Below are positions 54,481 through 58,545 of a DNA stretch of 62,673 nucleotides, piece by piece. The position numbers and the translations under genes are program-made. The DNA is from Defluviitaleaceae bacterium (lineage in GTDB: Bacteria > Bacillota > Clostridia > Lachnospirales > WQUN01). Numbering within the stretch: the first letter of the stretch is position 1; every line of letters starts with the position of its first letter. Under the pieces are notes generated by a model. The model was not told the origin of the DNA. It saw nothing but the letters and a program-made list of their open reading frames with translations, and made no database searches. Location of the stretch: the NCBI GenBank assembly GCA_009784025.1, contig WQVK01000008.1:1-62673 (forward strand). Direction: 5' to 3'.

Positions 54481-55752
54481 ATGAACATGAACATTTACAC
54501 TCGCATGGATTCAGATGTAGACATCCAAGCATCCGGAGGGCAATCATTTGAAGAAATGCTTAACGAATCCCTTGTCACATTAAAGACAGGCGCAATCGTT
54601 AAAGGAACTGTCATGCATGTAACCCCGGCAGAAGTTATTGTCGACCTTGGGTTCAAGTCAGATGGCATAATCTCCAAAACAGAATTTACAGACGACCCCA
54701 ACGCCCAACTTACCGAACTTGCCAAGCCAGGCGATGTTTTCGAAGTTGCAGTGCTGCGTGTTAACGACGGCGAAGGCAATGTGGTTGTATCAAAACGCAA
54801 GGTAGACAGTCAGCTTAACTACAAGTATCTGGAAGCCGCATTCAACGACAAAACTCCCCTACCCGGCAAAATCGTGGATATAGTCAAGGGCGGGCTAATT
54901 GCCAGCATCATGGACTGCCGCGTGTTTGTACCCGCATCTCAAATATCAAACCGCTTCGAGCAAAATCTCGAAAACTTCAAAGGTAAAGAATTTAACTTTG
55001 AAATTCTTGAACTTGACCGCTCGAAAAGGCGTATAGTAGGCGGCAGAAAAGACCTAGCAACCCGCGAAGCCCAAGCCCGCCGCGACGAAATTTTTGGCAC
55101 CATTGAAGTGGGCCAACAAGTAACCGGCACAGTAAGCCGCGTAGTAGACTTTGGCGCATTCGTGGACCTAGGTGGCGTAGATGGCCTAATCCATGTGTCC
55201 GAAACTTCATGGAAGCGCGTTCGCAAAGCATCCGATGTACTTAGCGTAGGCGATGTGGTAACGGCTTTCGTTATAGCCATGGATGCCGAAAAAGGCAAGA
55301 TTTCCCTGTCTCTAAAAGACGCGAAAGCAAACCCATGGAACAATATTTTAGAAAAATATCCAGTTGGCGGAATAGTTGAAGGTAGGGTTGCTCGCCTTGC
55401 AGCATTCGGCGCGTTTGTCACATTAGAAGACGGCTTAGACGGTCTGGTTCATATCTCTCAAATAGCCAACAAGCATGTGGCCAAGCCAGAAGATGAACTG
55501 TCTCAAGGCCAAGTTATCAACGTAAAAATCGTTGAAATAGATGTAGAAAAACAAAAAATCAGCCTCTCTAAACGCGAGGCCGATGCAGCTCTAAATCCAC
55601 CAGAAGATGATTATGACGACGAATACTATGACGACCAATACGATGAAGAATATGAAGACGCCGACGTAGCAGAAGAACTAGAAGAAGTTGCCGCAGTAGA
55701 ACCAGCGGCAGAAGAAGTTGAAGCAACAGAAGAAACCCCAGAAGAAGAATAA
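54481..55752 (+). CDS. rpsA: 30S ribosomal protein S1
   Basis: 423 residues with four S1 RNA-binding repeats (about 35-105, 120-190, 205-275, 290-360), for example GTVSRVVDFGAFVDLGGVDGLIHVSE, and an acidic Asp/Glu/Tyr tail (about 365-423). Binds mRNA on the small subunit. GGAGG is 11 nt before ATG 54481; ATG 54487 is an alternative. Unlike many Clostridia it is not fused to IspH. Confidence 0.95.
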   Translation: MNMNIYTRMDSDVDIQASGGQSFEEMLNESLVTLKTGAIVKGTVMHVTPAEVIVDLGFKSDGIISKTEFTDDPNAQLTELAKPGDVFEVAVLRVNDGEGNVVVSKRKVDSQLNYKYLEAAFNDKTPLPGKIVDIVKGGLIASIMDCRVFVPASQISNRFEQNLENFKGKEFNFEILELDRSKRRIVGGRKDLATREAQARRDEIFGTIEVGQQVTGTVSRVVDFGAFVDLGGVDGLIHVSETSWKRVRKASDVLSVGDVVTAFVIAMDAEKGKISLSLKDAKANPWNNILEKYPVGGIVEGRVARLAAFGAFVTLEDGLDGLVHISQIANKHVAKPEDELSQGQVINVKIVEIDVEKQKISLSKREADAALNPPEDDYDDEYYDDQYDEEYEDADVAEELEEVAAVEPAAEEVEATEETPEEE

Positions 55753-55757
55753 AAAAT

Positions 55758-56134
55758 ATGAGTAAGCTGGGCAGTCGCGTGTATACTATACATGAGGAAA
55801 GTCCGGGCACCATAGGGTAAGGATGCCGGGTAACGCCCGGCGGAGGCGACTCCAGGGATAGTGCAACAGAAACAAACCGCTAACAATGGCATGGGAAACT
55901 GCTTCGGCAGCTTCCCATTGCCTTGAAGTAAGGGTGGAAAGGTGCGGTAAGAGCGCACCGCAACCTTGGAGACAAGGCTGGCCATGTAAACCCCATCCGG
56001 TGCAAGACCGATTAAGCAGCCCAACGGCAAGGGGCGACCCGCCTCGCTTAGGTAGTGTCGCAAGAGCCGGCTGGCAACAGCCGCCCCAGATAGATGACTG
56101 TCCAAGACAGAACCCGGCTTACAGGCTTGCTCAT
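55758..56134 (+). ncRNA. rnpB: RNase P RNA, class A
   Basis: 377 nt. Ends pair (ATGAGTAAGC / GCTTGCTCAT). Conserved core GAGGAAAGTCCGGGC, ACAGAAACAAACCGC, GTAAGGGTGGAAAGGTGCGGTAAGAG, AGATAGATGACTGTCC and ACAGAACCCGGCTTAC are all present, giving the catalytic RNA that matures tRNA 5' ends. Lies just after rpsA and 9 nt before tRNA-Ser. Confidence 0.97.
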
Positions 56135-56143
56135 ACAATTTAT

Positions 56144-56230
56144 GGAGATGTACTCAAGTGGTGAAGAGGTTCCCCTGCTAAGGGAATAGGTCGGGAAACC
56201 GGCGCGGAGGTTCAAATCCTCTCATCTCCG
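56144..56230 (+). tRNA. tRNA-Ser(GCU)
   Basis: 87 nt. Acceptor GGAGATG / CATCTCC, discriminator G, anticodon loop CTGCTAA (GCT, reading AGC/AGU), a long variable arm (GGTCGGGAAACCGGCG) as in serine tRNAs, T loop TTCAAAT. CCA is not encoded. Confidence 0.95.
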
Positions 56231-56336
56231 ATTTTATACATTACCCCTCTGTGAAAGTGGATAATGTGAACGTGAAGCTGTTAGAGAAGGTCGCAAGCCA
56301 TCAACTAACAGCAACACATGAACAATCGAACAATCT

Positions 56337-56368
56337 GAAAACTCGCTTGCAAGCGAGTTTTCTTTTTT
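56337..56368 (+). terminator. Terminator after rnpB-tRNA-Ser
   Basis: GAAAACTCGCTTGCAAGCGAGTTTTCTTTTTT. A second hairpin (GCTGTTAG...CTAACAGC, about 56277-56312) lies between the tRNA and this terminator. Confidence 0.85.
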
Positions 56369-56423: not shown

Positions 56424-56593
56424 CGTTGTAGCCGCTCCACCTAAAAACATTCGCATAGAGCTTGTAAATTTCCCACAAGCTTTCGTCGCTAAAAACCTTG
56501 CACACCGCCAGTGCGCGACGGCTTTCAGCTCCTCGCCTTGCGAAAAATTTCCTGCGCTCTATGCGAATGTTTTTAGGTGGAGCGGCTATAATG
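56424..56593. repeat. Fold-back repeat, 33-bp perfect arms
   Basis: Arms 56429-56461 (TAGCCGCTCCACCTAAAAAC...) and 56556-56588 are exactly inverted over 33 bp, extended by G-U-tolerant pairs to about 38 bp, with a 94-nt loop containing its own small hairpins. Read on the minus strand it is open (RWSGYNGEKQCEIEVRYKFQNAF towards 56305), faintly like the C terminus of a serine recombinase; that is weak. No transposase. Confidence 0.7.
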
Positions 56594-56651: not shown

Positions 56652-58385
56652 CTATTGAACTGTCAACAACCGCTCCCTAACTTCACGCATTTGTCCTGTT
56701 TGTTGCCAATTTACCCTATCAAAAACTTCTTCCATATAGGTAATGTATAAACCTTGCTCACCCACACCGCCAAGAGATATGCTTGCTTGAAAATGGTATT
56801 CACTTGCAAAATATCCGCTTGTTCCATCGGATAACCTCCATGATATGGGCACCCAACGAAAACGCTTGTCTCGTGGAGATTCTAGGCTCATGTTGTATCC
56901 GGCGGCTGTAATAGTGATGTTTTGCCCGGCGGATAGATTGTTTTCATCGATGCCATAGATAATGCCTCTATATGCTCTTGGCCAAATACCACCGGGGCCG
57001 GAATATACCCATTTTGGAAAGAGCATCGTATCTTGATAAATTATAGTCTCATTTGTGTAGGGTGCCTCTTCAAAATTAGGGTTGTTAAACCAACCATGGA
57101 ATGTATAATCATCTCTTGTTGGGTTAAATTGCTCCGCTGGCCATACCGTTTCACCACCGCCAAGCCCATGCCCCTCTAAGACGGGGAAAATGCACAAGGA
57201 CCCAAATGCATAAGTCATAAAATGCACTTCCAGAAGTGTCTCATCATGTTCTTCTGGCCAAACCCTTACATAATCAATAAAATCAAGAGAAAGATAATCT
57301 ATAGAATGCTCTTGCCCGCGGGAATTAAAGTCCATAGATTCAGTACGTTGAACAGCATAAACAACCCCTTGGTTTGAGTAAGCCAATTGTATAAACAACG
57401 TGTATTTCTGGCCTATCCCAAACTCATATGTGTCACGAAACCTTACCCAAGTGTCAATGCCAAATATAAATCGTCTACCGCTCATTGACTCTACATCAAG
57501 TGCTACGGATGTTCGGCCATGCTGCCAAGTGATATGATGCCATGTATCTTTTACAATAAAGTCTGCATACACGCCAATGGGATGCCTTGCTTCATCCCAA
57601 ATTGACAGGTTTAATAAATAATAATCATTCGGGCCTGTAAGTGGACGAAAGCTGCCTACATAAAGCTCGCCCTGCCACATCTGCCTTATTGCCCTAACTT
57701 TTACGCCCAATTTTGCATCAAAATATGGTGTGTGAAGAAACACATGTGGGTTTGTGTATCGTGATTGGACTTGATAGCCTCCTATGTCTTGCGGCATAGA
57801 AAATCCATCCGTTGAAATCGTTTGGTCTTGCATTATTGCCAGCCGCTGGGCTTCCTCGATACTTAAATCTGGAGATAAATATCTAATGACCGATGTTAAA
57901 ATCATAATCATATCTTGCGAATTATCATGGTCTTTAAATGCAATCGTGAACGAAGGATTTGCAGAGCCATCAAGCAAAACATCTATGCCGTAATTCAAAT
58001 GCCTATTTAAAAATAATATGACACCAACATTGCCACTATCAGAGAAATTCACCACAATTTGAGTATACTCTCTGCTGTTAAATACAATGTTTTCTATTTC
58101 ACTTATAGTCATTGGCAAGCCACGTTCGTTTATGTCATTTTCCAGCGCAATTTTAAGTTGCTCGGCTGGATATTCAGGGTGCCGGAATGCGCCAATTATA
58201 TTCCCCGCGGTAGTACCGGTATTATCATCTGGAGTGGTATGGCTAGAAATATTATCTACAGCGTCGCTGATAATCCTCTCCATGTCATGCTTGTGCTCAT
58301 TGGCAGGTTCTGCGTTTCCACATGATGCAAGCATCAGTATTAAAACAAGCATGGCTAAAAAAGTAAAATTCTTTTTTATTTTCAT
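56652..58385 (-). CDS. Lipoprotein with InlB-type repeat, unknown
   Basis: 577 residues. Lipobox LASC at about 20-23 after a hydrophobic stretch (FTFLAMLVLILMLASCGN). About 425-480 resembles a Listeria-Bacteroides (InlB B) repeat: PTRDDYTFHGWFNNPNFEEAPY. The rest is beta-rich, without recognised domain. Anchored to the outer face of the membrane. ATG 58385 follows GGAG; ATG 58400 is less likely. Confidence 0.75.
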   Translation of the reverse strand: MKIKKNFTFLAMLVLILMLASCGNAEPANEHKHDMERIISDAVDNISSHTTPDDNTGTTAGNIIGAFRHPEYPAEQLKIALENDINERGLPMTISEIENIVFNSREYTQIVVNFSDSGNVGVILFLNRHLNYGIDVLLDGSANPSFTIAFKDHDNSQDMIMILTSVIRYLSPDLSIEEAQRLAIMQDQTISTDGFSMPQDIGGYQVQSRYTNPHVFLHTPYFDAKLGVKVRAIRQMWQGELYVGSFRPLTGPNDYYLLNLSIWDEARHPIGVYADFIVKDTWHHITWQHGRTSVALDVESMSGRRFIFGIDTWVRFRDTYEFGIGQKYTLFIQLAYSNQGVVYAVQRTESMDFNSRGQEHSIDYLSLDFIDYVRVWPEEHDETLLEVHFMTYAFGSLCIFPVLEGHGLGGGETVWPAEQFNPTRDDYTFHGWFNNPNFEEAPYTNETIIYQDTMLFPKWVYSGPGGIWPRAYRGIIYGIDENNLSAGQNITITAAGYNMSLESPRDKRFRWVPISWRLSDGTSGYFASEYHFQASISLGGVGEQGLYITYMEEVFDRVNWQQTGQMREVRERLLTVQ

Positions 58386-58545
58386 AATGATTATCTCCAT
58401 TCAAATATTTATCTAACTTTTGGCGCAGCAGATGTGCTGTTTCTGGGCAGTCCTAAGTTCTTACGAGTGTAGTATTTATATTGTTACACGTGTAAGATAT
58501 GAAAGTCAAGTGTTTCTTAAAGCTGTTTTGTTTTTGCGTTTGTGG

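Follow-up and report, generated by a model that had tools for sequence, protein, structure and literature searches.

When the gene for a ribozyme is followed, almost without a gap, by the gene for one of its own substrates, does a single cut mature both? The question is raised by the RNase P RNA gene (rnpB) of a Defluviitaleaceae bacterium, which has a tRNA-Ser gene directly behind it. The DNA analysed here, referred to as the window, is the whole 62,673-nt stretch of contig WQVK01000008.1 (assembly GCA_009784025.1, forward strand), part of a 2.14-Mb draft genome in 67 contigs that is 82% complete. The gene arrangement makes it probable that rpsA, rnpB and the tRNA gene share one transcript and that the RNase P cut at the tRNA 5′ end would also make the 3′ end of the RNase P RNA (P RNA).

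The rnpB–tRNA-Ser(GCU) Locus

The rnpB gene encodes a type A P RNA at 55757–56135 (+), as delimited by cmscan together with a fold of the joint RNA. The RNaseP_bact_a model (RF00010) matches in full length at 55759–56137 (+), covering model positions 1–367 of 367 with 289.3 bits (E 1.5e-93) against a gathering score of 100. Since a search of the draft assembly found this rnpB as the only one, and since rnpA is also present, the P RNA is presumably active. In the Rfam alignment the last base pair of helix P1 ends at 56133, and the minimum-energy fold of the joint RNA (55753–56240) uses two outer P1 pairs as well, A55758–U56134 and U55757–A56135. The same fold keeps the tRNA separate from the P RNA, with eight unpaired bases preceding G56144. 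The spacer, or tRNA 5′ leader, is 8 nt long with the extended P1 (56136–56143) and 10 nt when counted from the last Rfam pair (56134–56143), and the 9-nt gap of the original prediction was right to within one base.

The tRNA gene occupies 56144–56230 (+; cmscan, 59.4 bits) and has the cloverleaf, the long variable arm and the GCU anticodon of a tRNA-Ser(GCU), with G56230 as the discriminator and no encoded CCA. ARAGORN likewise calls a tRNA-Ser(gct) at 56143–56231 (+), so that both programs uphold the earlier reading of rnpB followed by a tRNA-Ser on the same strand. When all 32 tRNA matches of the draft assembly were read or named, GCU was the anticodon of one, the rnpB-linked gene. To judge by the tRNA 5′ end, RNase P would be expected to cut between 56143 (U−1) and 56144 (G+1), and the U at −1 is kept in 15 of the 17 loci of the family with an rnpB–tRNA pair. 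Four further tRNA matches in the relatives G018, G026 and G027 have the anticodons CGA or GGA. As a separate observation on tRNA genes, at locus L183 (G000:C1:91914-92082) a weak tRNA-like match (31 bits; Ile(tat) according to ARAGORN) comes after a tRNA-Ser(GGA) and overlaps with it; this match ends in the same CATCTCC acceptor strand and is perhaps a decayed duplicate.

The Upstream rpsA Gene and Its Overlap with P1 in Relatives

A point absent from the original prediction is that a protein-coding gene runs up to the ribozyme from the other side. The gene rpsA (54481–55752, +) encodes 30S ribosomal protein S1, a protein of 423 aa with four S1 domains and an acidic C-terminal tail (NCBIfam PRK06676.1, 410.7 bits; cut-off 368), and is itself preceded by a phospholipid acyltransferase-like gene, cmk and a gene for a HI0933-type flavoprotein. 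Its TAA stop codon lies at 55750–55752, and P1 of rnpB begins 4–6 nt past it. In the family, rpsA is directly upstream of rnpB in all 17 loci with the tRNA pair, and nine of these (L042, L045, L047, L049, L052, L055, L058, L068 and L199) have the stop codon of rpsA within P1. The stop ends seven bases inside the Rfam match in eight of the nine, and L199 was added by reading. In all nine, the last glutamate codon, GAG, together with the UAA stop forms the conserved GAGUAA of P1. Moreover, the first P1 pair covaries, being U–A in the window and C–G in L052, L055 and L056, and because it changes on both sides together, the stretch is kept as a helix in addition to being translated. At the end of rpsA, a terminating ribosome would sit over the 5′ strand of P1 and may in this way affect the folding of that helix.

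Conservation in the Family

Strong rnpB matches were found in 33 of the 38 genomes of the window’s family, and all 34 of these matches were examined, one of them (L201) with only 20 nt of 3′ flank. A tRNA-Ser(gct) follows rnpB on the same strand in 17 of the 34 loci, at P1-to-tRNA distances of 6 to 110 nt (29 nt or less in 11 of the 17, and 6–14 nt in five, the window included), and inspection of the 17 spacers by eye showed no evident conserved sequence. A tree of 33 rnpB sequences, rooted at its midpoint only, places all 17 pair loci in a single clade, which has 19 rows (ultrafast bootstrap 100, SH-aLRT 98), and the check on conservation that accompanied the original prediction thus comes out in favour of an arrangement kept by descent. 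The two rows of the clade that have no pair are L046, where a hairpin and T run, seen by eye, stand in place of the tRNA, and L200 (G029:C64:1-344), a second, divergent rnpB at a contig edge that has its own terminator and no tRNA. L200 may represent a genuine second rnpB of one relative or a contaminant.

The association with rpsA extends further than that with the tRNA, since rpsA is also found upstream of rnpB in five loci without a tRNA (L046, L050, L051, L059 and L067), and ten rows in the opposite part of the tree had no rpsA match. On this midpoint-rooted tree, the likely order of events is that rnpB first joined the end of rpsA and that the tRNA joined rnpB later.

Terminators and Promoters

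A scan of the window detected nothing resembling a terminator between the end of rpsA and the tRNA, in agreement with the earlier claim that none separates rnpB from the tRNA. A good intrinsic terminator, with an 11-bp stem, a loop of 4 and a T run, lies at 56337–56362 (+), 107 nt past the tRNA, and was recovered in a second analysis. None of the 17 pair loci has a terminator between rnpB and tRNA, which is partly trivial in that short spacers cannot hold one, and in nine of the 17 a terminator follows the tRNA at a distance of up to 150 nt. Among the 16 family loci without a tRNA, eight have a terminator within 100 nt after rnpB, and in other families of the order the same is true of 64 of 108 loci, as against 7 of 108 shuffled sequences. 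On these counts, the tRNA occupies the place where a terminator of rnpB would be. Against a joint transcript stands L046 of the same clade, with its hairpin and T run in place of the tRNA.

Promoters were sought as sigma70-type sites that would initiate transcription either at the 5′ end of rnpB or within the spacer, each compared with 200 dinucleotide shuffles. For rnpB in the window, the best match was no better than the shuffles (p 0.27), and in 16 of the 17 pair loci a sigma70 promoter for rnpB within the end of rpsA had no support at p 0.05; the other locus, L060, has a candidate at p 0.01. For the tRNA, a spacer of 8–10 nt leaves no room for a promoter starting within it. A promoter for a separate tRNA transcript was the finding that the original prediction had named as speaking against it, and the best sigma70-type match for such a promoter in the window was likewise no better than the shuffles (p 0.6). 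The two genes, then, lie on one strand with neither a terminator nor a sigma70-type promoter between them, as expected of a single transcription unit, and the earlier proposal of one transcript carrying both ribozyme and pre-tRNA is well supported on these grounds.

Two further features lie beyond the unit. At 56426–56591, beginning about 64 nt past its terminator, the window contains a MITE-like element with 36-nt inverted-repeat arms that are 97% complementary and 94 nt apart. The element has 40 scored places in its own genome (of 113 candidates), most of them at 87–95% identity. Beyond it, on the reverse strand (56652–58400), is a 582-aa ORF without an NCBIfam match and with only a sub-threshold hit to the Listeria-Bacteroides repeat in Pfam.

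Proposed Joint Transcript and Its Maturation

We infer the joint transcript, and the nucleases at work on it, from the genes and their order. In the proposed scheme, rpsA, rnpB and the sole tRNA-Ser(GCU) gene would form one transcription unit ending at the terminator described above. Lacking a terminator and any good promoter of its own, the P RNA probably owes both of its ends to processing. On the 5′ side, an endonuclease, perhaps RNase Y, would free the P RNA from the rpsA mRNA together with RNase J, which would trim the 5′ end back to P1; genes for RNase J, RNase Y and rnpA are all present with scores over their cut-offs. On the 3′ side, RNase P, with P RNA as the enzyme, would cut at the 5′ end of the tRNA-Ser and leave a tail of 8–10 nt. 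This cutting would take place mostly in trans, through other, mature RNase P molecules. Where the RNase P cut makes the 3′ end of P RNA, the maturation of every P RNA molecule calls on RNase P.

The original prediction had gone on to say that cleavage of the tRNA would create the rnpB 3′ end, perhaps in cis. The first part stands to the extent that the RNA is joint, in which case a cut at 56143/56144 necessarily detaches the tRNA from the P RNA as well. The suggestion of cleavage in cis did not find support, given spacers of 6 to 110 nt with no conserved sequence visible.

Occurrence outside the Family

It may well be that the two genes are simply neutral neighbours, the tRNA having landed once behind rnpB and being co-transcribed with it, while their shared cleavage is inconsequential and generic exonucleases finish the rnpB 3′ ends. 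Such a view is compatible with co-transcription and denies only that the link matters to the cell. The rarity of the arrangement around the family agrees with it. The tight rnpB–tRNA pattern was found in one of 391 genomes of the class, the window’s own (none of 390 others), and in two of 398 genomes of the phylum, the second being a Lys pair (one of 397 others). In other families of the order, 109 loci were inspected, the highest-scoring among 162 non-family genomes with an rnpB match; none has a tRNA within 300 nt of rnpB on either side or strand, and none has rpsA within 600 nt upstream. A general rule that a tRNA follows rnpB was rejected on the first of these counts.

Farther afield, tight pairs with different tRNAs do arise. 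A pattern scan of 84,980 species, in which other members of the family are not recognisable and near relatives may be omitted, returned 38 stretches. By cmscan, 24 of them are RNase P RNAs, of classes A and B, with a same-strand tRNA just behind, in ten combinations of lineage and tRNA: Ser-GGA in Blattabacterium (seven), Arg-CCU in Cardiobacteriaceae (four), His in Chloroflexia (one), Leu-UAG, Leu-GAG, Lys and Ala in Clostridia or Bacillota (two each), Leu in Rickettsiales (one) and in WOR-3 (one), and Ser-GCU in Negativicutes (two). Four more (L003, L010, L018 and L039) combine the 3′ motif with a tRNA but fall short of the cut-off for RNase P RNA. In the other ten (L004, L005, L008, L011, L016, L019, L025, L027, L029 and L036) there is no same-strand tRNA behind the motif, and cmscan was run on the stretches that do have one. 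As in the window, the tRNA of these other bacterial pairs lies at a short distance and on the same strand; the tRNAs are mostly different ones and the lineages unrelated, which makes the pairs separate events. One coincidence of identity was seen in L037 (Anaerospora hongkongensis DSM 15969) and L032. Their lineage is unrelated and their P RNA is of class B, and Ser(GCU) stands behind rnpB as it does in the window’s family.

Recurrence of this kind proves nothing by itself, because a rough estimate (about 50 tRNAs, 5 Mb of both strands and a 31-nt search window) indicates that chance could produce such pairs in some tens of species. Selection for the pair across bacteria is thus not supported; what is seen is repeated origin at a rate that chance could explain. 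Within the family, one member of the clade (L046) has lost the pair, which also fits an association of no consequence. What weighs on the other side is that, in a clade that covers several genera, 17 of 19 rows have kept the pair, and the orientation of the tRNA is constant. On balance, we would give neutrality an even chance of being correct.

Possible Cleavage in Cis

A more demanding possibility is that each P RNA folds, captures the tRNA on its own 3′ end, cuts it off and so matures alone. Ribozyme and substrate would indeed be on one molecule, joined by a linker of 8–10 nt, and Frank et al. (1994) are reportedly the source for P RNA–substrate conjugates that cleave in cis. The spacers of the relatives differ in length (6 to 110 nt) and share no evident conserved sequence, which means that no particular geometry has been kept; a conserved spacer element that might serve cleavage in cis was looked for by eye in the 17 spacers, and none was seen. 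In the architecture of P RNA, moreover, P1 points away from the active site, and a linker of 6 nt may be too short to bring the tRNA there. Artificial P RNA–substrate conjugates are described as cleaving in cis in vitro, but these engineered molecules had the substrate joined on the L15 side and not at the natural 3′ end (PMC13022451). Finally, cleavage in trans by mature RNase P would suffice. A mainly cis route is judged unlikely.

The overlap of rpsA with P1 invites a broader version, in which the ribosome finishing rpsA on or beside P1 gates the folding of the ribozyme, and the ribozyme then cuts off the attached tRNA, partly in cis, so that the output of S1, of RNase P and of tRNA-Ser(GCU) would be tied together in one loop. 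Such a loop is distinctly improbable.

A Possible Separate tRNA Promoter or Assembly Artefact

Two separate transcripts would result if the tRNA had a promoter of its own overlapping the 3′ end of rnpB. The sequence TACAAT at 56134–56139 is a good −10 word, yet transcription driven by it would usually begin some two bases within the tRNA, and AACCCG, the hexamer 17 nt upstream, agrees with the −35 consensus in only one of its six positions; candidates starting in the spacer fared no better than the shuffles, as noted above. TATAAT-type candidates for the tRNA do occur in three relatives with long spacers, namely L044 (p 0.02, spacer 61 nt), L061 (p 0.025, 98 nt) and L062 (p 0.095, 55 nt). The tie between rnpB and tRNA is thus not absolute, and a promoter specific to the tRNA may have arisen in some lineages with long spacers. 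Against this as a general account, the five spacers of 6–14 nt cannot hold a promoter, and for the window a separate tRNA transcript seems very unlikely. Adjacency produced by mis-joined metagenome contigs, a concern with any draft as fragmented and incomplete as this one, was rejected as scarcely credible, since 16 further genomes of the family show the identical order.

Comparison with Known Systems

The arrangement of the window is not wholly new, because yeast mitochondria already have a unit of P RNA and tRNA. There, tRNA-fMet, RPM1 (the 9S P RNA) and tRNA-Pro are given as one unit in a promoter table (PMC3797045), so that P RNA and a downstream tRNA are joined as we propose here. As presented there, the mitochondrial unit is organellar, has a tRNA upstream as well and contains a different kind of P RNA, whereas the proposed unit of the window is bacterial and has a ribosomal-protein gene upstream and a spacer of 8–10 nt.

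Among bacteria, the 6S RNA (ssrS) of Streptococcus pneumoniae is described as sharing a joint transcript with a tRNA, with no start site between them, and processing of the long RNA is assumed to yield the tRNA (PMC6212727). As in the window, a bacterial stable RNA is followed by a tRNA, but 6S RNA is not the processing enzyme. For the 5′ side, a parallel is offered by Staphylococcus aureus, where an mRNA likewise runs into rnpB: an unidentified endonuclease is reported to cleave a gpsB–rnpB read-through RNA, and RNase J to trim it back to P1 (PMC3937233). There, the S. aureus P RNA is reported with its own 3′ ends and without mention of a downstream tRNA, whereas in the window’s family a coding sequence reaches into or next to P1. 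For the 3′ side, RNase E is stated to make the P RNA 3′ end in Escherichia coli, and autolytic processing of P RNA has been proposed for Bacillus subtilis (PMC11143913). The latter proposal resembles ours in that RNase P helps to mature its own RNA, and differs, as summarised in that source, in that the cut falls in extensions at the 5′ and 3′ ends of the P RNA and not at a real tRNA. A literature search of titles and abstract openings, with subscription papers mostly outside its reach, brought up no recognisable bacterial rnpB–tRNA or rpsA–rnpB transcript.

Significance

If the proposed maturation is true, the locus would be a natural bacterial case in which RNase P makes the 3′ end of its own RNA at a real tRNA, and the P RNA would need neither a promoter nor a terminator of its own. 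With spacers of 6 to 110 nt and a relative that has lost the tRNA, the family forms a natural series that suits direct tests of cleavage in cis versus trans, and the same series suits a test of whether P RNA needs an independent terminator. Moreover, with the rpsA stop codon lying inside P1 in nine relatives, a link between the termination of translation and the folding of a ribozyme becomes testable.
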